A stretch of DNA of 35,899 nt from Pirellulaceae bacterium. GTDB taxonomy: Bacteria; Planctomycetota; Planctomycetia; Pirellulales; Pirellulaceae. The DNA is taken from positions 1 through 35,899 of the forward strand of contig JAALLA010000023.1 of assembly GCA_011087765.1 (NCBI GenBank), read 5' to 3'. Shown here piece after piece: positions 12,918-35,899 of this stretch. The notes under the pieces are model-generated. The model was not told where the DNA came from. It did no database searches and saw only the letters and a list, made by a program, of their open reading frames with translations. Within the stretch, counting starts at the first letter, position 1; every line of letters starts with the position of its first letter. Made by a program: the position numbers and the translations under genes.

Positions 12918-14135
12918 TTACTTTTTAATTTCTCGAATTCGAATGGACCGGAAACGAAGATTATGAGGCTGTCCGTGGTCTTGCAAACCGATGTAACCCT
13001 CGAGAGGCCGGTCTTTCATTGCTCCCTCATCGAGCTGGATATCAGTAATTTGTTCACCGTTAAGATCGACCTGTAAGTGATTGCCAATGCAGGTAACAAC
13101 CATTCGGTTCCATTGATTCGGAGGACGAGACATGTTTTTTGTGGCACCCACGGTTCGAATAATTCCCCCGTGATCATGGTGCCCCAATGGCTCTCCTTTT
13201 TTCGATGAATCAAGAATTTGAGCCTCAATTCCAGTTTCGACCGGGTTGCCGCGATCTGCAACTCGAAAATAAACTCCACTGTTCCCGCCGGGGGGATACG
13301 CATACTCAACATCGAGAACGAAATCTTTGTATTTTTTCTCAGACCACAAATAATCACCGTATCGCTGCCACCCCTTTTCACCGTCACGTGGCTGAATCAA
13401 CAAGACTCCATCTTTCTCGACAATCCAATTGCCAGATGTCACCCACCCGGTCAGATCGTTACCGTTGTACAACGAAACAAATGAATCAAGGTTCCGCAAT
13501 TTCACATTGCGCCATCGAACTTCGTAGGGTCCCTGACCACGGCCAATTCCATGCACCTGCAAACCGATAAAACCACGCCCATGGGATTTAAATTTCCCTT
13601 CGTCCGTAAGGTCGGAGACCGGCTCTCCATTTAGCCAAGTCTCAATTTTATTGCCAAAGGCAACGACGTGATAACGGTTCCACTCCCCCTCTTTAAATAG
13701 AGTATGAGCTTTTCGGTCTTTTCCTGGAGTCATCCAACCGCCGGCGGCTTCGCCGTAAACATAGCCAGCCATACCATCGGTTGAAATCTCAACCTGCGGA
13801 CCATTGACGCGTTCTTTAGGGTCATCATTCTTAGTCTGAGAACGAATCTGAACTCCCGAATTCAATCTCGAATCGACTTTTACATCAAACATCAATTCAA
13901 AATTACCAAAAACCTCGTCTGTGCAAAGAAATGAATTGGGAGACCCTTCTGCAGTGGTTCCAACAATCATCCCATTTTCTACACGATAGTTTGCTGTCCC
14001 GTTCCGCTGCGTCCAGCCTTCAAGATTTCTACCGTTAAATAAATCGACGAATCCAACGTCATCCTGTGCATTGCAGAAAGGCGCCGCACAAAACATCAAA
14101 ACGAAAACAGGAGCAATGAATTTGAAACGAAGCAT
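12918..14135 (-). CDS. Secreted protein with two DUF1080 (3-keto-disaccharide hydrolase-like) domains
   Basis: This 405-residue exported protein has a signal peptide (about 1-23, ending CNAQ) and two tandem DUF1080 domains (about 27-212 and 216-405). Each opens with the hallmark 'LFNG.nL.GW' (FNGRNLEGW; YNGNDLTGW) and holds the 'NSGV..R' strand (SRLNSGVQIRS; GGNSGVYFRV) and a late 'R..RF/GFIGLQ.HG' block. DUF1080 has a concanavalin-like fold; characterised members hydrolyse 3-keto-glycosides. Many planctomycetes carry dozens of such genes. It is followed by the SDR gene and preceded by another DUF1080 gene, all on the minus strand. The actual substrate here is unknown. Confidence 0.92.
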   Translation of the reverse strand: MLRFKFIAPVFVLMFCAAPFCNAQDDVGFVDLFNGRNLEGWTQRNGTANYRVENGMIVGTTAEGSPNSFLCTDEVFGNFELMFDVKVDSRLNSGVQIRSQTKNDDPKERVNGPQVEISTDGMAGYVYGEAAGGWMTPGKDRKAHTLFKEGEWNRYHVVAFGNKIETWLNGEPVSDLTDEGKFKSHGRGFIGLQVHGIGRGQGPYEVRWRNVKLRNLDSFVSLYNGNDLTGWVTSGNWIVEKDGVLLIQPRDGEKGWQRYGDYLWSEKKYKDFVLDVEYAYPPGGNSGVYFRVADRGNPVETGIEAQILDSSKKGEPLGHHDHGGIIRTVGATKNMSRPPNQWNRMVVTCIGNHLQVDLNGEQITDIQLDEGAMKDRPLEGYIGLQDHGQPHNLRFRSIRIREIKK

Positions 14136-14431
14136 TTAAATGACCCGCAGTTAAGACTATTTTATCTGCCTATTCATCCAATGGGTTTTATAACCAGAGT
14201 CAATCAACACGTTAGACGACAGCAACCATCAATCTAGTGCACCCCTCAACAACCTGCAAATGAACAATTGCATTTCGACAAATTCGAGACATAGCTCGAA
14301 CGCCGATTGAAGTTACCGAGAGTCAGATAACGAAAGAGAATTCACCGCACCGAACGCCACCTGACGCGGCGGCACCAGATTTTTATCAATTACAAGTATT
14401 TCGCTCAGCAAAGAATCAGCCGATCGGGCGA

Positions 14432-15814
14432 TTAAGAGTCAGGCTTTTCACCTGTTTTTTTAACTTGCTGTTTTTGCACTGGCTTTGAATTCGCCTGGGG
14501 CGGCACTTTCTTGTCAGTTTTTTTCTCAGCCCCTGTTTTCTTCGGCTTCGACTTCTGACTTTGTGATTTGTTCGGTTGTTTCGCGGGTCCCTTCTGCTCC
14601 AATTCGCTGGAAGTCTTAGGCGTTTCGTCGACTTTAGATTTAGCCGAATCAAGTTTAGCTTTTAACTTTTCCGCTGCACGCTTTTTCTCCGCAGCCTGCT
14701 TCCTCGCCACCTTGGCTCGTTCTTTTCGTTTCAACTGCTCTGATTTAATCGCACTTTGAACCTGTTCTTTCGTGGGTGTTTGGGGAAATTCACCCGTTGC
14801 CAAACCTCGATCAACAACCCAGATGTTTCGAAATCTAACCGGGTCGCCATGGTTCTGAAAACGAGTCGGCAACAACAGAGGTTCTTCAATCTTGCCAGCC
14901 CCGGTTTTGTTGGGTAGCGAAACATTATCTTGAACTTTGACTCCGTTGACCCAGCTTGTAATCGTGGCATTTCTTGCCTTCGTGCCATCAGCATTCCAAC
15001 GAGGCGCCGTAAATTGAACATCATAAGTTTGCCAAACCAGCGGTGGGAAACACATGTTGATCGCCGGCGGACGAAAACGATACAGCGCCCCCAGTCCATC
15101 AATTTTTGGAATCAACGCAAACGAGTCGAGCACCTGGCACTCATAACGGCTTTGTAAATACAAACCGCTATTGCCACGCTGTTGACCGTCCGCGTACGGC
15201 ATGTACGGCAATCGAAATTCAACGTGCAAATTGAAATCCTGAAACATTGGCTTGACGTCAGCACCCTCCATCAGCAAGTGATCACCGGTCATCTCACCGG
15301 TGGTAAATTGATCTGTTCCAGATCCATCAAATAGGATCACGGCACCCTCCGGGGCCGGGGAGTACATCGTCGGGCTTCTGCGCTTAATTCGTTTTAACTG
15401 CCCTCTCGATTTGCCCTTCAAATCGACCAAACGGCATTGCCTATCCTCAACGAAAATCGCCCATGGCCCACCAGAAAGAACCACAAATTCACCAGATCGT
15501 TTACCAATCATATGGATTGGCTCTGAATTGAAATTTGGCTGTCCCGGCAAACCACCGTAATAAGCAATCGCATCGAATTGATCATTTCCAACCGAACGGA
15601 TTTGCAAACCAACGACTTGCTTTTTTCCGTCGTCAGCCGTAACCGATCCTAAGAATTCACCCATTAACGGGTAGCTCATATCTTTTGCAGGCGGACTCGT
15701 ATAGGCCGGCCCCTTTTCTTTATTCTGAGCATGCCCGGTAGAACCGAGCATCGGAATCGCAAGGAGTGCGAGCAGGGAGGGGCAAATCAACTTCAATAGC
15801 TTGGAGGATAACAT
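14432..15814 (-). CDS. Secreted DUF1080-domain protein with a long Lys/Gln-rich tail
   Basis: This 460-residue exported protein has a signal peptide (about 1-29, ending GHAQ) and a beta-rich N-terminal part (about 45-150) that I do not recognise. One DUF1080 domain follows (about 155-335; VILFDGSGTDQF, then QRGNSGLYLQSRYECQVLD). The last 110 residues (about 350-460) are dominated by Lys, Ala, Gln, Ser and Pro and are probably disordered and strongly basic. Such a tail might bind acidic polysaccharide or the cell wall; that is inference. The gene lies 296 bp upstream of the two-domain DUF1080 gene on the same strand. Confidence 0.88.
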   Translation of the reverse strand: MLSSKLLKLICPSLLALLAIPMLGSTGHAQNKEKGPAYTSPPAKDMSYPLMGEFLGSVTADDGKKQVVGLQIRSVGNDQFDAIAYYGGLPGQPNFNSEPIHMIGKRSGEFVVLSGGPWAIFVEDRQCRLVDLKGKSRGQLKRIKRRSPTMYSPAPEGAVILFDGSGTDQFTTGEMTGDHLLMEGADVKPMFQDFNLHVEFRLPYMPYADGQQRGNSGLYLQSRYECQVLDSFALIPKIDGLGALYRFRPPAINMCFPPLVWQTYDVQFTAPRWNADGTKARNATITSWVNGVKVQDNVSLPNKTGAGKIEEPLLLPTRFQNHGDPVRFRNIWVVDRGLATGEFPQTPTKEQVQSAIKSEQLKRKERAKVARKQAAEKKRAAEKLKAKLDSAKSKVDETPKTSSELEQKGPAKQPNKSQSQKSKPKKTGAEKKTDKKVPPQANSKPVQKQQVKKTGEKPDS

Positions 15815-20291: not shown

Positions 20292-21806
20292 TTAAGTCCC
20301 AAGAATTTTTCGATACTGTGAATAAACCGATTCCTCCATCGTAATCGATGAATTCTCCGGAAGAAAAACTTCGGGTTCGAAAGAGCGCGACACAACCTCG
20401 CGGATTTGGAACCGATCGACTAAAGTGCCACAGCCCAACGCCTGAGTCAAAACGTTTCCAATTGCAGTGGCTTCCGTTGGGCCGGCGCTAACTGGTCGCT
20501 GCATAACCGTTGCCGTAATTTCGGTTAACAGGCGGTTGTTTGCACCACCGCCGACGATATATAAAACTTTTATGGGTTGACCGAGGATATCTTCCAGCAA
20601 ATCTACGGTCTCGCGGTAACACAACGCTAAACTATCGAGACAGCAACGAACCAATTCACCAAGCGTTACCGGGAGTGGTTGTCCAGTAGCTTCTGCAAAC
20701 TCCTTAATTTTCCCCGCCATGTTACCAGGTGCAGCAAACTGCGCCGCATTAGGATCGATTAAAGTTCGAAATGCCGCTGCCTCTGACGCCTGCTCGGCCA
20801 TCTCTGCGTAGCTAATTTCCCGCCCCGCTTCCATTTCTTCCCGCCGCAACTCCTGCACAAGCCAAAGCCCGGCGATATTTTTCAAAAACCGTGTCGTACC
20901 CGCCAGCCCTAGTTCATTTGTAAAAGGTGCATCACAAGATTTCGCAGACGCAAACGACTGGGGCAACTCCGCCCCTAGCAATGACCAGGTGCCACTCGAA
21001 AGGTAAGCCCATTGGGAATCACCGAAAGAAGGATCTACTGGAACAGCCGCAACCGCAGATGCCGTATCATGCGCTCCGGGCGCAATGACTTTAACATCAG
21101 TCCGGACCCCCGTGGCCTCGGCAATTTCCTCACGAACATTGCCAACAACATCTCCCGGATCAATAATTGATCCCAACATTCCAGTAGGAAGATTGAGTTG
21201 TTCCATCAACTCCAAGTCCCAATCGCCCGTCTCAAGCGCCAACATTCCACTGGTCGATGCGATGGTTCGCTCGGTGGTCATCTCGCCAGACAGCCAAAAA
21301 TGGAAAAGATCAGGTACGAACAGCAGGCGATGCGCTGCTGCCACCAATTCGGGTTCCCGGGTATTTCGAGCGACCACCTGAAATAACGAATTGATTTGCA
21401 TCAACTGAATTCCAGTTCTCGCATAAAGCGCCTCGCGGCCGCCCACAGCTTCCAGCACCTTTTCCATCGCTTCGTGATTTTGCGGGTCCCGGTAGCAATG
21501 AGGCAGCGCCAACAATTCACCAGACTTACCAACGAGAGCCCAGTCCACCCCCCAAGCGTCGACCCCAATACTACTCAACTCGACGTCGTTGTTGCGGCAC
21601 CACTCCGCAGCTTGGCGAATCCCCTCCAAAACATTTAGCCAGATTCCAGTCAAATCCCAAACGGGACCAGCGGGAGTCGGGCAGGGATGGTGCTCAAAAC
21701 GATGCACTTCCTCAAGTTCCACAACTGCAGGATTTCCTCGCAATAATCCAATAATTGCTCGCCCGGAACTTGCTCCTAAATCAATGGCTAAATGAGCGCT
21801 CGACAT
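20292..21806 (-). CDS. rhaB: Rhamnulokinase RhaB
   Basis: This 504-residue FGGY-family sugar kinase phosphorylates L-rhamnulose to L-rhamnulose-1-phosphate with ATP in the cytoplasm. The N-terminal AIDLGASSGR phosphate-binding motif is typical of RhaB, as are IGVDAWGVDWAL, the TGIQLMQINSLFQ block, the APGAHDTASAVAAVP segment and the C-terminal VGGGANNRLL and GPTEATAIGN motifs. The length is normal. AAGGA lies five bases before the ATG. It sits 185 bp downstream of rhaEW on the same strand, consistent with one operon. Fuculokinase is the main alternative, but the sequence blocks favour RhaB. No isomerase gene (rhaA) is in the window. Confidence 0.93.
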   Translation of the reverse strand: MSSAHLAIDLGASSGRAIIGLLRGNPAVVELEEVHRFEHHPCPTPAGPVWDLTGIWLNVLEGIRQAAEWCRNNDVELSSIGVDAWGVDWALVGKSGELLALPHCYRDPQNHEAMEKVLEAVGGREALYARTGIQLMQINSLFQVVARNTREPELVAAAHRLLFVPDLFHFWLSGEMTTERTIASTSGMLALETGDWDLELMEQLNLPTGMLGSIIDPGDVVGNVREEIAEATGVRTDVKVIAPGAHDTASAVAAVPVDPSFGDSQWAYLSSGTWSLLGAELPQSFASAKSCDAPFTNELGLAGTTRFLKNIAGLWLVQELRREEMEAGREISYAEMAEQASEAAAFRTLIDPNAAQFAAPGNMAGKIKEFAEATGQPLPVTLGELVRCCLDSLALCYRETVDLLEDILGQPIKVLYIVGGGANNRLLTEITATVMQRPVSAGPTEATAIGNVLTQALGCGTLVDRFQIREVVSRSFEPEVFLPENSSITMEESVYSQYRKILGT

Positions 21807-21925
21807 ACCAGTCCTTCATTTTTTAAAGCCGGCATTTGTAAAAAATTGAAATGTGAATCTGAAAATGAAAAGTTTCCGCAGTTCCAGATTCACTTGGATG
21901 CAACTTGAGACCATCGGTTTGCCGC

Positions 21926-21950
21926 CCCCTCCCGGGCACTGCCGGAGGGG
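21926..21950. repeat. GC-rich hairpin between rhaEW and rhaB
   Basis: CCCCTCC (21926-21932) pairs with GGAGGGG (21944-21950) in perfect 7-bp arms with an 11-nt loop. No T run follows. In the rhaEW-rhaB transcript this could stabilise or attenuate the message. Confidence 0.6.
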
Positions 21951-21991
21951 ACTCTCAACAGTTCAGTCGCAAATTAATCCACCGAACCCGT

Positions 21992-24202
21992 TTATCGAAG
22001 AAATGCTTCGTGCAATCCACCGTCAACATTAATAATTTGACCAGTCGTCTTACTGGACCGATTGGACGATAGAAAATAAATCGCCTCTGCCTGATCCGCG
22101 GGAGTAATCGGTTGCTTGGTCAATGTTCGCTGTGCATAAAATCCAGCTAAACTGTTTCGCAACGAATCATCAGAATCCGATTCGTCAAACGCAATGTCAT
22201 ACTTCGTTAGCGAAGCGATCACCCGGTCTCGCGGGAACATCGTACTGCCGGCCACCACAGTTGCCGGAGCGACAGCATTGACGCGAACTAGCGGTGACAT
22301 CTCGATTGCCAACTCCCGAACCAAATGGTTAGCAGCCGCCTTCGATGTATCGTAAGCAATGGAGCCTTTCTTACCGACCACGCCGTTAACGCTGGTCGTC
22401 AAAACGACCGATGCCGACAACCCCTGTTCTTTGAGTAGCCCACGCAACTCGTCGACCACGTTGTAACTTCCTCGTACATTGACGTCGAAAGTGAACTTCC
22501 ACTTGTCATCGGAAAGCGATCCATCACGTTCAGGTGCCACAAAAACTCCCGCCGTCACGATTATTCGATCGATCCCGCCGTAAGCGAGTAAGGTCTCGTG
22601 AATCATCGCCTGAATGGAATTCCGGTCAGTTATATCAACGCCAAGCCCAATGGTTGGCCCGCAGCCAGAAATCCCTGAACCTGCGACACCGATCCCAACA
22701 CCATAAATTTCGGTTAATTCCGCAGCCGTCGCTTGGGCTGCATCCTCGCTGAGATCACAACACACGACATGAGCGCCTTCTTTGGCAATACGATGAGCAA
22801 CTTCTTTACCAATGCCATTGCCCGCACCAATCACCAACGCAATGTCTCGTGACATTTCTTTTTCCGGTGGCTTACGCTTTAACTTAGCCTCTTCAAGCAA
22901 CCAGTACTCAATGTCGAAGGCTTCCTGTTTAGGCAAAGCAATGTACTCTCCCAGCGCTTCGGAGCCACGCATGACCTCAACCGCACAAGTGTAAAACTCA
23001 GCTGTGACTCTCGACTCACTCTTATCTTTACCCCAGGCAATCATCCCGACACCCGGCACCAAAATAACTGTCGGGTTGGGATCACGCATCGCTGGAGAAT
23101 TATCGTGCTTGTGTGCCTCGTAATAGGCAGCGTAATCTTTGCGATATTGCTCAAGCCCCGCAGTAAGCAGGTTCTTAAGATTTACCAAACCATGAGGATC
23201 TTTTTCTGTTGTCTCAGTTGGATCCCAATCAACATACAGTGGCTTGATCTTAGTTCTGAGGAAATGGTCGGGGCAACTCGTACCCAACTCAGCCAAACGA
23301 GCTGCGTCATTTGAGTTAACGAAACGCAGGATTGAATCACGTGTCTCAACCGTACCGACAAACTTGTTCATCTGAGAAACTTGACCGCGCAACCAAGGCA
23401 GCAGGTTAACCAATAAAGAATCCCGGGAATCATCGGGGAGAGTTTCGTACTTTTGCCCTCCAAACGTTTGATCCCCCTGATCTTTGGATTCGATATACTC
23501 GGCCGCCTTGTCAATCAAGCTCAAGGTCAACTCATAGCATTCCTTATCATCATCAGCCCAATTAATTAAGCCATGCTGCCCCATTACGAGCCCCTTCAGA
23601 GAGGGATTCGCTTCCACCTCTTTTTGCATCAATAGCCCAAGCTCAAACCCTGGACGCAACCACGGAACCCAGCCAATCTCATCACCAAAAATCTCCTGTG
23701 TCATTTCCCGACTGGCACTGCACGCCGCAATCGAAATCACACTATTGGGATGCATGTGGTCAACGTGCCGTGCTGGCAAAAACCCGTGCAGAGGCGTATC
23801 GATTGAACTGGCACGTGGATTTAAATTGAATGTGCAGTGAGGAAAATATCCAACCATCGCGTCTTCGGCTGGAGTTTTTGGCCCGTTGTCGGGAGCGTTT
23901 TTGTAACTGGGGATTAACGAAAGCAGTTTATTCATGTAAAGCGAAGCAAAATTTTGCAATTTGGCCGTTCGCAAATCGCCACCCGATCCCTTGACCCACA
24001 AAACATCCGTTTCGCCACCGGTCAGCGGATCGGTTTCCATGATTTTTGACGATGTGTTCCCCCCACCGGTATTCGTGATCCGTTGGTCAGCACCCAAGCA
24101 ATTCGAGCGGTAAATCAAGCGTTCCGCAGGTGAAAGAGCATCGGCAACAGAATCGTCCCAGTGACGATCCACGTGTTTTAAATCATTTGTAGCAGTAGAC
24201 AT
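21992..24202 (-). CDS. rhaEW: Bifunctional rhamnulose-1-phosphate aldolase / L-lactaldehyde dehydrogenase (RhaEW)
   Basis: This 736-residue fusion has a class II aldolase domain (about 20-430) and a short-chain dehydrogenase domain (about 450-736). The aldolase part has the metal-binding HVDHMH cluster at 146-151 and GQHGLINW further on. The SDR part has the cofactor motif GAGNGIG, VTAGVF in place of the usual NNAG, and an active site with SVNG and YDTSKAA. Known fusions of this type split L-rhamnulose-1-phosphate into DHAP and L-lactaldehyde and oxidise the latter to L-lactate. The C-terminal VDGG closing strand is present. It is the first gene of a minus-strand rha unit followed by rhaB, and it is divergent from lutABC. 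The start is ATG without a clear Shine-Dalgarno. A role on fucose-derived or other lactaldehyde-yielding phosphates is the alternative. Confidence 0.92.
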   Translation of the reverse strand: MSTATNDLKHVDRHWDDSVADALSPAERLIYRSNCLGADQRITNTGGGNTSSKIMETDPLTGGETDVLWVKGSGGDLRTAKLQNFASLYMNKLLSLIPSYKNAPDNGPKTPAEDAMVGYFPHCTFNLNPRASSIDTPLHGFLPARHVDHMHPNSVISIAACSASREMTQEIFGDEIGWVPWLRPGFELGLLMQKEVEANPSLKGLVMGQHGLINWADDDKECYELTLSLIDKAAEYIESKDQGDQTFGGQKYETLPDDSRDSLLVNLLPWLRGQVSQMNKFVGTVETRDSILRFVNSNDAARLAELGTSCPDHFLRTKIKPLYVDWDPTETTEKDPHGLVNLKNLLTAGLEQYRKDYAAYYEAHKHDNSPAMRDPNPTVILVPGVGMIAWGKDKSESRVTAEFYTCAVEVMRGSEALGEYIALPKQEAFDIEYWLLEEAKLKRKPPEKEMSRDIALVIGAGNGIGKEVAHRIAKEGAHVVCCDLSEDAAQATAAELTEIYGVGIGVAGSGISGCGPTIGLGVDITDRNSIQAMIHETLLAYGGIDRIIVTAGVFVAPERDGSLSDDKWKFTFDVNVRGSYNVVDELRGLLKEQGLSASVVLTTSVNGVVGKKGSIAYDTSKAAANHLVRELAIEMSPLVRVNAVAPATVVAGSTMFPRDRVIASLTKYDIAFDESDSDDSLRNSLAGFYAQRTLTKQPITPADQAEAIYFLSSNRSSKTTGQIINVDGGLHEAFLR

Positions 24203-24252
24203 ATTTTTGTTTTTTTTGAGGTGTAAAAAAGACTTGTGAAAAACCGATAGTT

Positions 24253-24283
24253 AGTATGGTCGCATACAACGGTTTGATGTCAA
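24253..24283 (-). promoter_or_regulatory. Candidate rhaEW promoter
   Basis: On the minus strand a perfect -35 box TTGACA (24278-24283) lies 19 bp before CATACT (24253-24258; four of six -10 matches), about 50 bp upstream of the rhaEW ATG. The long spacer suggests a promoter that needs help from a regulator. Confidence 0.45.
24254..24267. promoter_or_regulatory. Operator-like palindrome in the rha/lut divergent region
   Basis: GTATG (24254-24258), four bases, and CATAC (24263-24267) form a perfect inverted repeat between and overlapping the candidate -10 and -35 boxes of rhaEW. This position suits a repressor site. The regulator gene is not in the window. Confidence 0.45.
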
Positions 24284-24388
24284 CTCAGTCGTCTTAACTT
24301 AAAAACGGTACATCGACACAAATAGGTATCAAACCACCCCGAGATTGCGTTATATTGATAGTTCCAGAAATTTATTACGGAAACTGCA

Positions 24389-25105
24389 TTGAAAATTTCA
24401 CTTTTTATTCCCTGCTATGTCGATCAGCTGTCGCCACACGTCGGAATTGCGATGGTCAATGTTCTCGAGCGTCTCGGACACGAGGTTAATTACCCCGAAG
24501 AACAAACTTGTTGTGGCCAACCGGCCTTTAACTCAGGTTATTTCCCAGAAGCTAAACAAGTCGCAGATCATTTTTTAAATACATTCGCCGATGCCGACCT
24601 AATTGCGGTTCCCTCCGGTTCCTGTACGGCAATGATTAGAAAATTCTATCCAGACCTGTACCAGGACTCACCCCAATCCCAAGTCGTGTCGGAACTCAGC
24701 AGTCGCGTTTTTGAATTCACAGAATTATTAGTGAATAAGCTTGGCGTGACTGATGTCGGAGCAAAACTCGATGGAACAGCAACCTACCACGACGGCTGTC
24801 ATGGTCTCCGTGAACTCGGAATTCAGGACGCCCCACGAAAACTACTTGAAAACGTCGAGGGATTGTCGTTAGTAGAGATGGACGAGGCGCAATCGTGCTG
24901 CGGATTTGGCGGAACGTTTGCAATCAAATTCCCTCAAATATCGACTGCGATGACCCAAGTCAAACTCGGAAGCGCCTCGCAAACGGAAGCCGACTATCTT
25001 ATCTCGGGTGACCCAAGTTGCCTGATGCAAATAGGGGGCTATTTCAGCCGCCAAAAATCACCCATCCAATGCCTTCACATTGCAGAGGTACTTGACCAGC
25101 AATGA
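24389..25105 (+). CDS. lutA: L-lactate oxidation subunit LutA (CCG-domain iron-sulfur protein)
   Basis: This 238-residue protein is the LutA/YkgE type, with two cysteine-rich CCG domains. The motifs are TCCGQPAFNSGY (CCG at 41-43) and SCCGFGGTF (CCG at 170-172), with additional cysteines at 79 and 137. These domains bind iron-sulfur clusters and, in the LutABC complex, take part in oxidising L-lactate to pyruvate. The start is TTG; the family-typical first residues MKISLFIPCYVD follow at once. It overlaps lutB by four bases (ATGA), so the two are translationally coupled. It is divergent from rhaEW, 186 bp apart. Glycolate oxidase GlpC-like proteins share the domain but are longer. Confidence 0.92.
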   Translation: MKISLFIPCYVDQLSPHVGIAMVNVLERLGHEVNYPEEQTCCGQPAFNSGYFPEAKQVADHFLNTFADADLIAVPSGSCTAMIRKFYPDLYQDSPQSQVVSELSSRVFEFTELLVNKLGVTDVGAKLDGTATYHDGCHGLRELGIQDAPRKLLENVEGLSLVEMDEAQSCCGFGGTFAIKFPQISTAMTQVKLGSASQTEADYLISGDPSCLMQIGGYFSRQKSPIQCLHIAEVLDQQ

Positions 25106-26508
25106 GCCAATCCACCAACCCAACCACTCAATTTCAAACGGATGCGAATCGCGTTACTGCAGACGATGACCGCAGAAGTTTCCTTCGCAGTTCCTTGCGG
25201 GGCTACCAAACGACGCGGACCGCAACTCAGGAAAGATTCCTTAATTACGAATCCGCCAGAATTGCCGCCGGCGATGCGAAATGGGAAGCAATTGAAAATC
25301 TTGATATTTACCTCGCTCAGTTTGCCGACAAACTCGAAGCCCGTGGCGCAACCGTCCATTGGTGCAGTGACAGCAACGAAGCTCGAAGTGCGATTTTAAA
25401 TATTATAAAAGAGCATGATGCGAAGTCTGTCATCAAAAGTAAATGCATGACAACAGAGGAAATCCACCTCAACGACTTGCTCGAAAAAGAAGGGTTTGAA
25501 GTTGTCGAATCCGATCTAGGTGAATTCATTGTCCAACTCCGAGAAGAAGCTCCCTATCATTTCGTATTCCCGGCGATGCACCTGAAAAAGGAAGAAATAA
25601 ATTCACTTTTTCAAGAAAAACTCAAGTCAATTAATACCAATGATCCAGAAGAATTGACGATGGTCGCGAGAGAGGTCCTCCGGGAAAAATACCTCAGCGC
25701 CGACATTGGCATTAGCGGAGCTAATTTTGGGGTCGCCGAAACAGGAATGATTTCAATCACTGAAAATGAAGGAAATGCAAGGCTAACGACTTCTCTTCCC
25801 AAAGTTCATATTGCACTGATGGGGATTGAGAAAATTATCCCCAAACTGGAAGACCTGGCATTGATGCTCCCCATGCTGGCAACAGCCGGAACTGGCCAGC
25901 ACCTCACCTGCTACAATTCTCAACTGGGAGGTCCCCGACAGGACGACGAGAGTGATGGCCCGCTCGAAATGCACGTTGTGCTGCTCGACAATCACCGCAC
26001 CCGCCTGCTCGCCGACCCCGAACAGCGAGACGCCCTGCGGTGCATCCGCTGTGGCGCCTGCCTTAATGTTTGTCCAATATTCAAAAATGTCGGAGGGCAC
26101 ACTTATGGCACCACCTATCAAGGTCCCATCGGCAGTGTAATCACTCCGCACTTGCGTGGCCTCAAAGACTGGAAACACCTTTCCCACTCCTCCTCACTCT
26201 GCGGTGCCTGCTCGGAAACCTGCCCGGTAAAAATTGACCTCCATCATCACCTCTTGCGAAACCGCAGAGACGCTGCCGGCAAAGGGCAGGGGATGCTCGC
26301 TGAAAAAATCCTGATGTTCGGTTTCACGATCGTAATGCGGCGTCCGTGGCTTTATCGCCTCGCAGGCAGGCTTGGCAAGGTCGGTCACGTACTCACGAAA
26401 CCGATCCACGGAACCCGAATCGATCCGTTTTACGCTTGGAAAAAAACGCGTGACCTGGACGATCCAGCAAAACAAAGTTTCAAGCAGTATTGGAAGTCGA
26501 GAAAATGA
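25102..26508 (+). CDS. lutB: L-lactate oxidation iron-sulfur subunit LutB
   Basis: This 468-residue protein is the LutB/YkgF type. The N-terminal part (about 55-300) is the LUD domain, with KSKCMTTEE at 112-120 and the GANFGVAETG block at 206-215. Two ferredoxin-type 4Fe-4S clusters follow: C314, C317, C320, C324 in CIRCGACLNVCP and C367, C370, C374 in LCGACSETCP. The C-terminal about 80 residues are basic and close the protein. LutB is the central electron-transfer subunit of the cytoplasmic lactate-oxidising complex. It overlaps both lutA and lutC by ATGA, so three genes form one tightly coupled operon. Confidence 0.95.
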   Translation: MSQSTNPTTQFQTDANRVTADDDRRSFLRSSLRGYQTTRTATQERFLNYESARIAAGDAKWEAIENLDIYLAQFADKLEARGATVHWCSDSNEARSAILNIIKEHDAKSVIKSKCMTTEEIHLNDLLEKEGFEVVESDLGEFIVQLREEAPYHFVFPAMHLKKEEINSLFQEKLKSINTNDPEELTMVAREVLREKYLSADIGISGANFGVAETGMISITENEGNARLTTSLPKVHIALMGIEKIIPKLEDLALMLPMLATAGTGQHLTCYNSQLGGPRQDDESDGPLEMHVVLLDNHRTRLLADPEQRDALRCIRCGACLNVCPIFKNVGGHTYGTTYQGPIGSVITPHLRGLKDWKHLSHSSSLCGACSETCPVKIDLHHHLLRNRRDAAGKGQGMLAEKILMFGFTIVMRRPWLYRLAGRLGKVGHVLTKPIHGTRIDPFYAWKKTRDLDDPAKQSFKQYWKSRK

Positions 26509-27215
26509 GCCGAGATGCAATCCTAGGCCGAGTCCGCGAAGCTCTGAGTGTTAAAACAGATCCCCACGTTCGCGAAGTCGTTAAAAAATCATCCCACTCG
26601 CTGCCCGTCCTCGCTAACGGGCCCGATGGGAGGACGCAGGCAGTCAAAGAATTCCTGCCCTTTGTCGGTGATTCCCTTGAAGATCACGTTGCTGCGTTTA
26701 AAGTGCTTTCAGAGAAGCTTCAAACAGAATTCATCGTCGTCCCGACGGTTGACTCAGCCCGCCAAGCACTGGCACAACTTCGCCAAGCACATCAGTGGGA
26801 GCGAATTGGAATTCACGACAATGAGCTGGTTCAATCCTGCGTGGACCAACTTCAAGTTGAATTTTTGAATACCAGCTCAGACTATGATTCTCATGCGTTG
26901 GAAAAATGTGACGTCGGAATTTCGGGTTGCGATGCATTGATCGCTCAGACAGCGAGCGCTCTGGTAACCAATCACTCGGCGGGCGGCAGAGCTTTGTCGG
27001 TTTTGCCACCGCACCATGTGGTCGTTGCAGACGCATCGCAAATGGTGACAACCATGGCAGACGGATTCGCTCTGATTCGTGAAAAACACCATGACAACTG
27101 GCCGAGCTTCATTTCTTTTATTACCGGACCGAGCCGCACCGCGGATATTGAACGCGTGCTCGTTCTTGGAGCCCATGGCCCCAAAAAATTAACGATCATC
27201 ATGATCTCTGCGTAA
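26505..27215 (+). CDS. lutC: L-lactate oxidation subunit LutC (LUD domain)
   Basis: This 236-residue protein is a LutC/YkgG LUD-domain protein. It has the N-terminal helix SRDAILGRVREAL, the segment GISGCDALIAQTASALV (about residues 143-159), the HHVVVAD strand and the C-terminal TGPSRTADIERVLVLGAHGP block, which are characteristic. It is the third subunit needed for LutABC lactate oxidation. The ATG at 26505 overlaps the lutB stop as ATGA; an in-frame start 15 bases earlier lies inside lutB and is less likely. No clear terminator follows, so a downstream glycosyltransferase gene 90 bp away might be read through. Confidence 0.93.
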   Translation: MSRDAILGRVREALSVKTDPHVREVVKKSSHSLPVLANGPDGRTQAVKEFLPFVGDSLEDHVAAFKVLSEKLQTEFIVVPTVDSARQALAQLRQAHQWERIGIHDNELVQSCVDQLQVEFLNTSSDYDSHALEKCDVGISGCDALIAQTASALVTNHSAGGRALSVLPPHHVVVADASQMVTTMADGFALIREKHHDNWPSFISFITGPSRTADIERVLVLGAHGPKKLTIIMISA

Positions 27216-30390: not shown

Positions 30391-31641
30391 ATGCGACAAA
30401 ATCACAATAATAAGCGTTATTTTCGTAACCTAAGGCTTAGCACGCCTTTTCTATTCTTACTTTCATGGTTGCTTTTTATGCCATTTCAGGCATTCAGCGC
30501 CCTCCAAACTCCCGAAACCCCAATTTTTCCGAGCGAGCTAACCACCCCTCAAATTGAGGAAGGCTGGATCTCGCTTTTTGATCAAAAATCACTTTTTGGC
30601 TGGAAACCGACCTCTGACGCCCCTTGGAAAGCAGAAAACGGCGAGATCCGCATCCATTCGGGCCAACAGGGGCTATTGCGCACCACGAGCCAATTTGATG
30701 ACTTTGAATTAACGGTTGAATTCAAAGCCGAAAAAGGAACCAACAGTGGAATATTTTTTCGCACCAGCCCCAAACCCAATAATGTTGCGCGCGATTGCTA
30801 CGAATTAAATATCGCCCCCCCGGAAAATCCATTTCCAACAGGATCGCTGGTTGGTCGAAAAAAATGTGAGCCAACCGTAACTCCCAACCAATGGCATCGT
30901 TTTCACGTAACTGCCAATGGTGCCAACATAAAAATCAAACTGGACGATGAGCAAGTGCTCAACTATACCGACCCCAATCCAATCGGACGTGGCTACATTG
31001 GCCTTCAGTTAAACCAGGGGGCGATTGCGTTTCGAAACATTGCATTGAAACCCCTCAATACACGCTCACTTCTGGATGGCCCCGCGCTTGCCCAATGGGA
31101 TACAAGTCAGAAACTCAAGAGCACATTTGAACTTACGCAGCAGAATGAATTGCGCATCTTAAATGGAAAAGGGCAGATTGAATCTCGAGGTCTCTTTGGA
31201 GACTTTATCTTCTCGATGCAGTGTAAAACCAACGCAGTGGGTCTGAACTCCGGCGTATTTTTTAGGTGCATCCCCGGCGAGGTGATGAATGGCTATGAAA
31301 GCCAGATACAAAATCTATTTAAAAACAATGATCCGTCTCAACCGGTCGATTGCGGCACAGGAGGAATTTTTCGCCGCTCTGATGCGAGACGCGTGAACGC
31401 CGTCGACCAGGCTTGGTTTACCAAGACAATTATCGCTACCGGGCCTCACGTTAGCGTATGGGTAAACGGATATCAGGTCACCGACTGGAGCGATACTCGT
31501 AAGCCCGACCGCAATCCCCGCCGCGGTCTCCGACTGGAAAAAGGCACCATCATTTTCCAGGGGCATGACCCCACGACCGATATTCTTCTCAAAAACATTC
31601 GCGCAAAAGAAATCGCCCCGAGGCGACCCGCCAGAAAGTAA
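30391..31641 (+). CDS. Secreted protein with two DUF1080 domains
   Basis: This 416-residue exported protein has a signal segment (about 17-38) and two DUF1080 domains. The first (about 55-225) has the full landmarks: WISLFDQKSLFGWK, KGTNSGIFFRTS, WHRFHV and the GRGYIGLQLNQG block. The second (about 228-412) is more divergent, with SGVFFRC and VWVNGYQVTDW. The fold is that of 3-keto-glycoside hydrolases, in the envelope or outside the cell. It is 264 bp from the divergent thioester-reductase-like gene and ends 46 bp from the convergent ispH. The substrate is unknown. Confidence 0.9.
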   Translation: MRQNHNNKRYFRNLRLSTPFLFLLSWLLFMPFQAFSALQTPETPIFPSELTTPQIEEGWISLFDQKSLFGWKPTSDAPWKAENGEIRIHSGQQGLLRTTSQFDDFELTVEFKAEKGTNSGIFFRTSPKPNNVARDCYELNIAPPENPFPTGSLVGRKKCEPTVTPNQWHRFHVTANGANIKIKLDDEQVLNYTDPNPIGRGYIGLQLNQGAIAFRNIALKPLNTRSLLDGPALAQWDTSQKLKSTFELTQQNELRILNGKGQIESRGLFGDFIFSMQCKTNAVGLNSGVFFRCIPGEVMNGYESQIQNLFKNNDPSQPVDCGTGGIFRRSDARRVNAVDQAWFTKTIIATGPHVSVWVNGYQVTDWSDTRKPDRNPRRGLRLEKGTIIFQGHDPTTDILLKNIRAKEIAPRRPARK

Positions 31642-31687: not shown

Positions 31688-32623
31688 CTATTTTGTTTGG
31701 AGTTTCCGCAACTTCTTGGGCAAGGGAAAACTGACATGCTCTTCTCGGACGATCACCGGTTCCACAGATGCTCCGTACCTTTGAACCAACCAATCGATGC
31801 ATTCATTCACGACCGTTTCCGGCGCGCTTGCACCCGCCGTCATGAAAACCGTCTCGACATTGTCTAGCCACTCTACCTTTAAGTCAGCAGCACCGTCGAT
31901 CAAATAAGCGGCAACCCCTTCGTCTTCTGCCAATTCCCTTAGGCGTTGACTATTGGAACTGTTTTGGCTACCCAATACAAAACAGACATCCGCCTGAGTA
32001 GCGATTTTTTTGACAGCTTCCTGTCGGTTTTGGGTCGCGTAACAAATATCTTCTTTCGGTGGATTTACAAGGTTCACGAAACGTGATTTTAGTTTTTCAA
32101 TGATCCGATTAGCATCATCCACTGAGAGTGTCGTTTGTGTCAGATAAGCAACTTTCGCATCGTCTTCAATCTCGAGAGCGTCAACGCCTTCCACATCTTC
32201 TACTAAGATCATGGATTCCGGAGCCTCTCCCATGGTGCCAATCACTTCATCGTGCCCCTCGTGGCCAATCAAGAATATCGTGTACCCTTCGCGAGCATAC
32301 TTAACCGCTTCCAAATGAACTTTAGTCACGAGCGGACAGGTCGCATCGATTGCGTTTAGGTTTCGCTCTTGCGCAACTTTCCGTATTTCAGGCGAGACAC
32401 CGTGAGCTGAAAACAAGAGTACGGAACCTGGCGGAACCTCTTCAAGATGGTCAACGAAAATCGCGCCCTTTTTCTTAAATGACTCTACTACATATTTGTT
32501 GTGAACAATCTCATGGTAGACGTAGACCGGCTTCCCAAATTCGCTCAATGTGAGGTCGAGGCTCTCGATTGCCATATTGACCCCTGCGCAAAACCCTCTC
32601 GGGCTGGCAAGTAAAATTTTCAT
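31688..32623 (-). CDS. ispH: 4-hydroxy-3-methylbut-2-enyl diphosphate reductase IspH
   Basis: This 311-residue enzyme carries out the last step of the MEP isoprenoid pathway, reducing HMBPP to IPP and DMAPP. It has the three cluster-binding cysteines of a 4Fe-4S enzyme: Cys12 in PRGFCAGV, Cys96 in DATCPLVTK and Cys194 in DICYATQNRQ. Substrate residues His41, His74 and His124 (HEGHDE) and the SQNSSNS motif are also present. The length is normal. The ATG has GGAG seven bases upstream. It is divergent from a squalene/phytoene-synthase-like gene (126 bp apart), which uses products of the same pathway in canonical form. It is convergent with the DUF1080 gene. Confidence 0.97.
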   Translation of the reverse strand: MKILLASPRGFCAGVNMAIESLDLTLSEFGKPVYVYHEIVHNKYVVESFKKKGAIFVDHLEEVPPGSVLLFSAHGVSPEIRKVAQERNLNAIDATCPLVTKVHLEAVKYAREGYTIFLIGHEGHDEVIGTMGEAPESMILVEDVEGVDALEIEDDAKVAYLTQTTLSVDDANRIIEKLKSRFVNLVNPPKEDICYATQNRQEAVKKIATQADVCFVLGSQNSSNSQRLRELAEDEGVAAYLIDGAADLKVEWLDNVETVFMTAGASAPETVVNECIDWLVQRYGASVEPVIVREEHVSFPLPKKLRKLQTK

Positions 32624-32672
32624 TCATTCACTCCAAAGTTCAGTGATGGAAAACGAACAGCCGTCCGCCACA

Positions 32673-32697
32673 TCGTAATAACCGACCGCTATTACGA
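32673..32697. promoter_or_regulatory. Perfect 8-bp inverted repeat in the ispH divergent region
   Basis: TCGTAATA (32673-32680) and TATTACGA (32690-32697) are perfect arms with a 9-bp spacer, centred between the two divergent starts. This is the spacing of a dimeric regulator site, so one factor could control both genes. No regulator is encoded nearby. Confidence 0.5.
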
Positions 32698-32749
32698 ACC
32701 CACACAGTTTAACTGACCGCTTGCTTTTTCGGGAGGTAACCGGAACGGT

Positions 32750-33907
32750 ATGCCTCCATTTGTCTCAATTTCTGACCACACCGACACCAACGTTGGAACC
32801 AACGCAGTCCAAACAACGCAAAAAAACCTCAAAAACCAAGAATCGCCAACAAGCAGTTCACCCAATCCCGATGTCAAGGATGGAAAACACTACGCGCTTC
32901 CCACTCAATTCGCTAGGCTAGTTGGGGCAAGGATGGCTCCTCACCGACCACTGCCCCAACAATTCCCACAGAGATTGATGCTCACATCTCCCAACCATAT
33001 TGAACTTAACTCGCATGCCACCGAGCGTGGTTATCGCAGTTGCCGTGGTGCAGTCCGGCGCTATTTTAAGCCCCAGCTTTGGACTTCAGTAAATCTCCCA
33101 CGCGAACAGAGACGTGCTTTAGACGCGATTCTATTCAACCTCATGAGAACTCTCGATTTACTCGATCTCGAAAGCGCCGACGGACGGTCCCTCGATGTTT
33201 GGTTCGAGCTTCGAGACGACCTCAGTGATGCCTTTCGAGGAAAATGTACCTCGGTCGAACTTGCTGCGCTTGTTGACGCAAGCCGGCGTTTCAGCATTCC
33301 TAAACAGTTCATTTTCGACCCGCTTCGCGGTGCTGACTTATGGATACGAAACCAAAAATTTCAGACATTTGGCGAGCTTGAGTCTTTTTGCAGTTACGTC
33401 GGCGGTTCCTCGCTAGTTTCCGCCATGCCGATCTTAGGCGTGACTAAACCCAACTTTGAGGTATTCGCAGTTGAGTGCGGAAAAGCAATCATGCTGACGC
33501 AACTTTTGGCAAACTGTGTCAACGATATCAAGCGAAATAAAATCTACCTGGCGCAGGAGGACATGTTTCAATGTGAGCTCGATGTTCCACGGTTAAAACT
33601 TCGCCGCCCCAGTCCTTCCCTGATCCACTTTGTCCGTCTTTACGCGTCGCGGATTGAAAAAATGTTCTTCCGCGCCAAACGCCTTGCTGAACATTTAGAT
33701 TTCGACGGCAACCGAACTCTTAAATCACTTCTGGCTCTGCACTGGCAAATGCTTCTCAAGATGCAACTCACGCCGGAAACTATTCTGAGCGAGCAGGGAG
33801 TCCTCAATCGCCAAGAGAGATTGGCTTTGAAGTCAAGACATTTACTTGGTCTGGAACGAGATCTTCCGATCTTCACTGCCGCCACCAAGGCGAACCACTC
33901 GCATTGA
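32750..33907 (+). CDS. Divergent squalene/phytoene-synthase-like protein with degenerate catalytic motifs
   Basis: This 385-residue protein has a polar, unique N-terminal leader (about 1-88), then a trans-isoprenyl-diphosphate synthase head-to-head fold (about 92-345). The overall pattern is clear: 'ERGYRSCRGAVRRYFKPQ' then 'LPREQRRALDAILFNLMRTLDLLDLE', which aligns with 'LP...R.A..A.Y.F.R..DDIVDE'. The family needs two DXXXD motifs to bind magnesium diphosphate. Here the first reads DLLDLE (136-141), keeping only the first Asp, and the second reads VNDIKRNKIYL (257-267), shortened by about four residues and keeping one Asp. It may be inactive, regulatory or chemically altered. It starts 12 nt after a GGAGGT and is divergent from ispH. 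The family is fairly sure; loss of activity is inference. Confidence 0.75.
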   Translation: MPPFVSISDHTDTNVGTNAVQTTQKNLKNQESPTSSSPNPDVKDGKHYALPTQFARLVGARMAPHRPLPQQFPQRLMLTSPNHIELNSHATERGYRSCRGAVRRYFKPQLWTSVNLPREQRRALDAILFNLMRTLDLLDLESADGRSLDVWFELRDDLSDAFRGKCTSVELAALVDASRRFSIPKQFIFDPLRGADLWIRNQKFQTFGELESFCSYVGGSSLVSAMPILGVTKPNFEVFAVECGKAIMLTQLLANCVNDIKRNKIYLAQEDMFQCELDVPRLKLRRPSPSLIHFVRLYASRIEKMFFRAKRLAEHLDFDGNRTLKSLLALHWQMLLKMQLTPETILSEQGVLNRQERLALKSRHLLGLERDLPIFTAATKANHSH

Positions 33908-33932
33908 CTGAAATCATCTCGATCGACGCTTC

Positions 33933-35819
33933 CTAATCGTCATCTTCCTCACCGAGTCCAACCATTTCCAGCAACTTTAGCGCATTGGTTGTTTCGGCGA
34001 TTCCCTGCCTCATCTGGTAATCGAATGTCATCGTCCGAACACCATCGACATCTTCGAACTGTTCCGCAAAGTGGACTGTTTGGCAGGCAACCGCCAGGTC
34101 ATCCGTAGTTGCCAAGTCCAGGTCGTGAGTTGAAATTGCACCAATCGCGTTTCCATCAATTAACTTTCGAACGACTCGACTCACGGCAATTTGCCGCTCC
34201 CGCGAGTTCGTACCCTGAAGGATTTCGTCTAACAAAAACAACATTCGCTTGGGATTGTTGGCATCGTGCTTTTTCGCAGTGTCAACGATCGCCTTCAAGC
34301 GTTTCAGTTCGGCCATAAAAAACGAAACGCCATCTGCGAGTGAATCCGCGATTCGCATGCTTGTTTCAATATGCAACGGCGGCAAAGAGAAACTCTTTGC
34401 ACACACAACGCTACCCATTTGGGCCAGAACGATGTTTACACCCACACTTCGGAGCAGCGTACTCTTTCCTGACATATTGGATCCAGTGACCAATAAAACC
34501 GTTCCGGGCGGCCCTAACTGGACATCATTGGCAACCCGATCCTCGTTCAACAGAGGATGCCCAACGCTGGTTCCTTTAACGATGGCTGCCGTATTGTCAT
34601 CAACAGAATTAACTTTTGGAAAAACCCATTCCGGTTCATCCGCGGCCAGTTTGGCAAGAGAACATAGCGCCTCCCACTCACCTAAATCACTAAACCACCC
34701 CCGCGCCCTGTCACCCGTTCGACTTTTCCACTTCTCCATCATGAACAGCACATGAGCGTCCCAGAAAAACAAAAACTCTAAAATGATATAGAGAATAAAC
34801 CCCATTCCATTTCGCATATTTGCTAAGAAAACAAGGCCTCCCAACTTATGCATGTTGGGCTGAGCACCGTCGTCGGTACGCTGGATACGCTTTTGTAAAC
34901 TCTTTAGTTTTTCTGATTTCGCTGGAAACTGAGACGCCATATCAAATAAAGAAATATAATTTGCAGCCTGATCGCTTCGCGACGCAATGAGATTAAAGTC
35001 ATCGTGGATCCCTCCTGCAAACAAAATCGATAGTCCAAAATTGACCGCACAGGCGGCGAGCAACATCGAACCACCCACCATCGCGGGAGCAAATCCCAGC
35101 ACTAACAAAACGATCGCCAACAGGGAGACAATCGAAGTCATTCTTGAAACCAAGATCACCCAACCACGGTTCGCAAACCAGGAAGGGCTCTCGCACCACT
35201 CGACAAACCGACTCGGCCCGGAACGTGCGACTGATAATTGCTCACAGAGCAAACGAAATTGAAGTCTCCATTCAAATTCTGGTTTTAATTCAGCGACCGC
35301 CTGTTGTCGCAGGGCGATTTCATCGGAAAGGGCTCCATCGACAATCCATCGCTTCAACGTATCCGTACCAAGTGGCGTGCGCGTGATGCCCAGCAACTTG
35401 TACACCGAACTGTCTCCCAGCAAATCAAGGTCTTTCGAAATCGGAGCAAACCGAACTGGCGTATCAATCGGTTCTACTGAAATATCATTCCATTGGCGAT
35501 GACAACGGGCGAGCGACTCTTCGTGCATTTTTGAAAGAATCGTAGAGAGACGCAATTCTGTTTGCATTTTCTCGTGGATAAAAGCCACAACCAAAAACCC
35601 AATGAACAGTCCGCCGCTGAGACAATAAAACAACAACCCGAATCCCCAGGCGTCGGCTGCCCCCATCAACAAACTGGCGAAAAAGGATAAGAGCATTCCG
35701 CCCCGCAGGTACGCAACACTACTCCACCGACCAGCGCATCGTTTTACGGTTTCCTGCTCATGATTGAGCTTGCCCTGATAGTAATCCAGTACTTCTTTTC
35801 TAGACTGCGGACAATTCAT
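33933..35819 (-). CDS. Membrane-anchored MutS-like ATPase (MutS domain V, no mismatch-recognition domain)
   Basis: This 628-residue protein ends in a MutS-family ATPase domain (about 420-600): Walker A TGSNMSGKST (445-454), Walker B LFLLDEI (527-533), the TNSRER motif (537-542) and STHDLDL (563-569). Its N-terminal half has two hydrophobic helix pairs (about 42-82 and 222-270), another at about 330-355, and helical MutS core segments. There is no mismatch-recognition domain I and no MutS2 Smr domain, so it is unlikely to act in classical mismatch repair; membrane placement suggests another role. I chose the ATG at 35819. The frame stays open for 26 more codons toward the window edge, so a longer start cannot be excluded. 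It is convergent with the synthase-like gene, 25 bp apart. Confidence 0.85.
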   Translation of the reverse strand: MNCPQSRKEVLDYYQGKLNHEQETVKRCAGRWSSVAYLRGGMLLSFFASLLMGAADAWGFGLLFYCLSGGLFIGFLVVAFIHEKMQTELRLSTILSKMHEESLARCHRQWNDISVEPIDTPVRFAPISKDLDLLGDSSVYKLLGITRTPLGTDTLKRWIVDGALSDEIALRQQAVAELKPEFEWRLQFRLLCEQLSVARSGPSRFVEWCESPSWFANRGWVILVSRMTSIVSLLAIVLLVLGFAPAMVGGSMLLAACAVNFGLSILFAGGIHDDFNLIASRSDQAANYISLFDMASQFPAKSEKLKSLQKRIQRTDDGAQPNMHKLGGLVFLANMRNGMGFILYIILEFLFFWDAHVLFMMEKWKSRTGDRARGWFSDLGEWEALCSLAKLAADEPEWVFPKVNSVDDNTAAIVKGTSVGHPLLNEDRVANDVQLGPPGTVLLVTGSNMSGKSTLLRSVGVNIVLAQMGSVVCAKSFSLPPLHIETSMRIADSLADGVSFFMAELKRLKAIVDTAKKHDANNPKRMLFLLDEILQGTNSRERQIAVSRVVRKLIDGNAIGAISTHDLDLATTDDLAVACQTVHFAEQFEDVDGVRTMTFDYQMRQGIAETTNALKLLEMVGLGEEDDD

Positions 35820-35899
35820 TGTGCTTCTAATATCCCGTGTACCGTTGTTTAACACCAATGCTCCAACCGCCTGAACGATCGCTCCGGCATCTTTCAACT
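35820..35899. other. Upstream edge of the MutS-like gene
   Basis: This short segment holds the upstream part of the open frame of the MutS-like gene, or its promoter. The window ends here, so I cannot tell which. Confidence 0.4.

Follow-up and report, generated by a model that had tools for sequence, protein, structure and literature searches.

A squalene/phytoene synthase family protein encoded beside ispH in Pirellulaceae descends from HpnD and is probably a repurposed pseudoenzyme

Members of the squalene/phytoene synthase family (SQS_PSY, PF00494) such as HpnC, CrtM and CrtB keep both aspartate-rich DxxxD motifs intact, but the family also holds proteins that have neither and are nonetheless kept for another role: the eukaryotic protein NDUFAF6 and the fungal protein NDU1 serve the assembly of complex I (PMC8007014). 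A comparable case outside the family is the small subunit of geranyl diphosphate synthase (GPPS), a non-catalytic prenyltransferase relative that has no Asp motifs and regulates the catalytic partner of a heteromeric prenyltransferase (PMC7839719). Here we describe a protein that likewise lacks intact motifs, encoded on contig JAALLA010000023.1 of a Pirellulaceae bacterium, of which the 35,899 nucleotides analysed are called the window below. Its nearest subfamily by both profile and tree is HpnD of the Planctomycetota (TIGR03465), with which it shares a similar length and the same slot beside ispH, and from which it differs in having lost the first Asp of both motifs along with Arg, Asn, Gln and Tyr ligands, in standing without hpnC or hpnE, and in ending with a new histidine-bearing tail. 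NDUFAF6 and NDU1 are mitochondrial and of another lineage; any parallel with complex I would be one of analogy, and descent from a bacterial HpnD argues for an origin independent of NDUFAF6. A literature search of incomplete coverage returned no published account of this group of altered HpnD proteins.

The open frame at 32750-33907 (forward strand) comprises 385 codons, and the original prediction had read into it an 88-residue leader absent from other family members. The real start is the ATG at 32978, giving a coding sequence at 32978-33907 (+) and a 309-residue protein of ordinary size for the SQS_PSY family. Nearly all orthologues in the genus have an ATG 58-63 codons ahead of the DLLDL motif, equivalent to ATG 32978 here (~59 codons ahead); one orthologue, L019, has a possible start further upstream. 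Because close relatives (L032-L037, L009) carry in-frame stops within the stretch upstream of this conserved ATG, the supposed leader is an artefact of open reading frame calling, and the in-frame extension at 32750-32977 (+) is most likely an untranslated 5' region. An RNA element around the gene was considered and rejected, there being no Rfam match in the region 32500-34000.

As originally noted, the gene is divergent from ispH (31688-32623, reverse strand), the neighbour that anchors its positional orthology with the hpnC-hpnD genes of other genera. On the far side of ispH lies a DUF1080-type gene (30391-31641, +), a flank common to many loci with altered and with intact genes, which we give as context; it is one of three DUF1080-like genes in the 36-kb window (12918-15814 and 30391-31641; named by eye and by tblastn), and it is the one that recurs as an ispH neighbour across the family. 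Convergent with the gene is a MutS-like ATPase that appears to have membrane segments (33933-35897, named by eye), an adjacency kept in many relatives. Elsewhere in the window, at 20292-27215, look-alikes of rhamnulokinase, rhamnulose-phosphate aldolase/dehydrogenase and LutABC-type lactate utilisation proteins (also named by eye) form a block resembling an L-rhamnose-to-lactate route.

Family membership is supported by a profile search in which PF00494 matched at an E value of 1.9e-18 (67.6 bits, where the cut-off is 26), bearing out the predicted SQS_PSY scaffold and giving no pointer to an unrelated family. The nearest NCBIfam model is HpnD (TIGR03465), at 85.5 bits, far under its equivalog cut-off of 278.6. 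AlphaFold, given eight sequences, predicts an all-helical protein, but with a pLDDT of 47 and a pTM of 0.41; in a fold search with this low-confidence model the top ten PDB matches were CrtM, HpnC and their relatives, at a TM-score of ~0.35. The PDB entries 5iys, 8is6, 2zco and 4hd1 (HpnC, CrtM, CrtB) are also related to it by sequence profile.

Alignment of CrtM, 27 intact Pirellulaceae HpnDs and 19 orthologues from the genus shows how the two motifs were altered. The former first motif (residues 59-63, LDLLD; 33152-33166, +) reads L59-D60-L-L-D63 where all 27 HpnDs have D-D-x-x-D; among genus orthologues Asp is found at position 59 in none of 19, at position 60 in 16 and at position 63 in all 19. 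The former second motif (residues 179-183, NCVND; 33512-33526, +) had been described as shortened, but it aligns at full length as N179-x-x-x-D183, substituted in place against the D-x-x-x-D of HpnD, with Asn at 179 in 16/19 and Asp at 183 in 17/19 (HpnD has Asp at both in 27/27). The predicted loss of both metal motifs is thus real: no genus orthologue has an acidic residue at the first Asp position of either motif, and none has the motifs intact. Because these changes are common to all 19 they are not sequencing errors, and an explanation by sequencing or alignment error was rejected because the entire group shows the motif loss.

The changes extend well beyond the motifs. Fourteen active-site positions, chosen as those conserved in all or nearly all of the 27 HpnDs, were scored, and 11 of them are replaced in 18-19 of the 19 genus members, mostly from polar to hydrophobic. 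Nine that are uniform in HpnD (27/27) are replaced in every genus member, namely Y41, R45, D48, D114, Y129, G138, N168, R171 and D172 in CrtM numbering, and 18/19 have another residue at Q165 and at E175. Among them are R45, N168, R171 and D172, the residues that hold the diphosphate and Mg2+ in CrtM. Typical replacements are R to M, D to L, D to W, Y to F, G to L or M, Q to M and R to A, and the mean hydropathy of the 14 sites moves from -3.1 to -0.2. The Asp equivalent to CrtM D114, present in 27/27 HpnDs, is Trp in 19/19 genus members (W122; 33341-33343, +), and A178 is similarly uniform (19/19). Within the genus the remodelled positions are well conserved, scoring 0.76 against 0.71 over all columns, whereas in sister genera variation at the formerly invariant positions exceeds that of the average column (conservation 0.44 against 0.52), and the remaining motif aspartates are lost as well, D63 being kept in 4/9 and D183 in 2/9. 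These substitutions suggest that the former pocket has been filled in by hydrophobic residues. Because the residues that bound diphosphate and Mg2+ have been lost, and the old invariant positions are especially variable in the sister genera, prenyl-diphosphate chemistry is unlikely; canonical catalysis has probably been lost, and the original prediction of a catalytically dead family member is, on the pattern of lost ligands and motifs, probably right.

The gene was found in 21 of 28 genomes of the genus. In the other seven ispH is either without a match or cut at a contig edge, so that absence is not established in any of them; wherever the ispH flank is assembled the gene is present. The named relatives are Mariniblastus MAGs and other Pirellulaceae. 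Four sister genera (g51, g53, g71, g73) have orthologues in the same slot that are 26-35% identical and altered further still. The group stands apart within a set of 397 genomes from the order, with scores of at least 353 bits inside it and at most 189 bits outside, and the best-scoring outsiders, when checked, proved to be HpnDs with both motifs (the first slightly atypical in L196).

The ispH neighbourhood reveals where the altered gene came from. In 25 other Pirellulaceae genera, at 26 loci in all, hpnC-hpnD is divergent from ispH, usually followed by hpnE, and directly adjoins it in every case but L157, where it lies ~3 kb off. The altered genes occupy exactly this hpnC-hpnD slot, and in this genus and its four sister genera the altered gene is all that is found there. 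Some intact loci depart from the usual arrangement: in L150:8980-11966 (G111), a locus additional to the 26, hpnC and hpnD flank ispH on opposite sides rather than in tandem; in L153:2833-4740 (G112) both share a single 636-codon frame next to ispH and may be a natural HpnC-HpnD fusion; and in L123:3546-6449 (G090) and L156:3955-6699 (G060) HpnD and HpnE matches share one frame of 968 and 915 codons, respectively, again possibly by fusion.

In a protein tree that included HpnC, HpnD and CrtB, the 28 altered proteins form a single clade (100/100), placed on the side of HpnD and apart from HpnC and CrtB; the stem of this clade is long (1.5 changes per column), which leaves its nearest HpnD (g36) unsure. 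A quick single-gene tree of ispH likewise groups the 28 genomes together (98%). The altered proteins and HpnD are therefore related by common descent and are positional orthologues, and the simplest account is that hpnD was converted once, hpnC and hpnE being lost, and that descent was vertical thereafter. It follows that the ispH neighbourhood is inherited synteny from an ispH / hpnC-hpnD block, and the pairing with ispH, offered originally in support of an isoprenoid role, is no independent evidence for one.

The altered gene is under strong purifying selection. Measured against close relatives, its dN/dS lies at 0.02-0.08, some 2-4 times the value for ispH; several of the dS values are saturated, but in the unsaturated pairs the ratio is 0.057 (L036/L037) and 0.081 (L032/L034). 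Open frames are intact in all 28 altered members, retention spans at least five genera, and the group has acquired invariant residues of its own: W35, N39, G142, G143 and G291. The G142-G143 pair (33401-33406, +) is present in 28/28 where most HpnDs have A-S. From G291 onwards the C-terminal stretch (33848-33904, +) carries the signature G-x-E...P...His and here closes with NHSH; one of the last two residues is His in 28/28 altered proteins against 1/27 HpnDs. The conserved features now fall at the C-terminus and away from the former motifs, as would befit a scaffold, binding or assembly protein. A search for a hidden hpnD remnant beside ispH in family genomes that carry neither the altered gene nor hpnCD found none, and retention of the altered gene therefore looks other than passive.

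The rest of the pathway to which HpnD belongs was not found. Of 28 genomes tested that carry HpnCD, 27 have an HpnE over cut-off, against 0 of the 38 genomes of the altered group; squalene-hopene cyclase was over cut-off in 12 of 72 genomes overall and likewise in 0 of the 38. HpnC was not found in the genomes of the altered group that were searched, and no further SQS_PSY protein was found in the gene's own genome or in the single-contig genome G025. Most assemblies are incomplete, yet the pattern recurs over 38 genomes. A separate CrtB, together with a CrtI over cut-off, occurs in three genomes of the genus (G005, G017, G023) and one of a sister genus (G099), and G027 has a CrtB-like fragment; within the group CrtI-family proteins over cut-off occur only with CrtB, and the gene's own genome and G025 have none, on which ground an active carotenoid route through this protein was rejected. 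The suggestion that it partners or regulates true HpnC/HpnD enzymes is unsupported because no such partner was found: no HpnC, no HpnE or hopene cyclase over cut-off in the 38 genomes, and no second SQS_PSY protein in its own genome or in G025.

Pigmentation touches on the same question. Deletion of hpnD in other planctomycetes, Stieleria maiorica and Planctopirus limnophila, gives white colonies (PMC11958385), and published descriptions of Mariniblastus fucicola call its colonies white to light pink (PMC7716919) or simply light pink (PMC7717058). G025, which is probably M. fucicola, is without a second SQS_PSY protein, HpnE or CrtI over cut-off despite the reported tint, which is thus either non-carotenoid or derived from an unrecognised route.

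Taken together, we think it fairly likely that the product of the surviving altered hpnD is not a prenyl synthase but an alpha-helical protein that acts non-catalytically, as a scaffold or in binding or assembly. The main rival, which the original prediction had also allowed for, is an enzyme that still acts, with altered chemistry: its remodelled pocket would bind a prenyl or other hydrophobic substrate, and D60, D63 and D183, possibly aided by the C-terminal His, would catalyse another reaction. The genus does keep these aspartates and a conserved, remodelled pocket, which leaves room for a ligand or for new chemistry; SQS_PSY-like carbazole prenyltransferases in the PDB (CqsB4, LvqB4) do carry out other reactions, and the pink tint of M. 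fucicola, seen where carotenoid genes are not recognised, likewise counts on this side. We nevertheless regard such an enzyme as unlikely, given that the diphosphate and Mg2+ holders are gone from all 19 genus members, that the sister genera shed the remaining aspartates and diverge freely at these positions, and that the enzymes that would use the product (CrtI, HpnE, hopene cyclase) are not over cut-off in the gene's own genome or in G025.

The protein could instead regulate or stabilise another prenyltransferase as one of its subunits, in the way that the GPPS small subunit serves the large one, or it could regulate the MEP pathway in the vicinity of IspH; this role is in part a special case of the pseudoenzyme explanation. 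It can appeal to the existence of such non-catalytic subunits and to the divergent arrangement with ispH in all members seen, but the latter was inherited with the ancestral block; the GPPS subunit belongs to a different family and acts on a catalytic partner, while an SQS-family partner of the present protein is not found in most genomes, and we hold this role to be quite improbable. The loss of catalytic residues, deeper in the sister genera, and of the surrounding pathway might also be expected of a decaying hpnD relic without function. Low dN/dS, universally open frames, new invariant residues, retention across genera and the failure to detect a remnant beside ispH in family genomes with neither gene make decay very hard to credit.

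The fuller form of the pseudoenzyme explanation, which we favour by a modest balance, is that an HpnD-derived protein of SQS fold arose in one ancestor of at least five genera and has been kept universally for a new, non-catalytic function marked by the G-x-E...P...His signature. On this account the ancestral block would have been ispH / hpnC-hpnD-hpnE; the ancestor of this genus and the four sister genera would have lost the squalene pathway, and in that same ancestor hpnD would have lost its Mg2+- and diphosphate-binding residues. The altered HpnD would then have been held by strong purifying selection while gaining new conserved residues, its former pocket becoming a largely hydrophobic structure, and its new surface and His-ended tail may contact a partner or a metal. 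In this account the absence of catalysis, the scaffold role and the function of the tail are inferred.

Annotation of such genes as 'squalene/phytoene synthase' would wrongly imply squalene or carotenoid synthesis in the organisms that carry them. The locus offers a traceable bacterial conversion of an enzyme into a likely pseudoenzyme, with intact relatives in the same slot, a conversion that can be placed on the tree and a product under strong selection. If its function is found, the protein would provide a bacterial comparison for NDUFAF6, itself an SQS_PSY protein of unresolved molecular activity.
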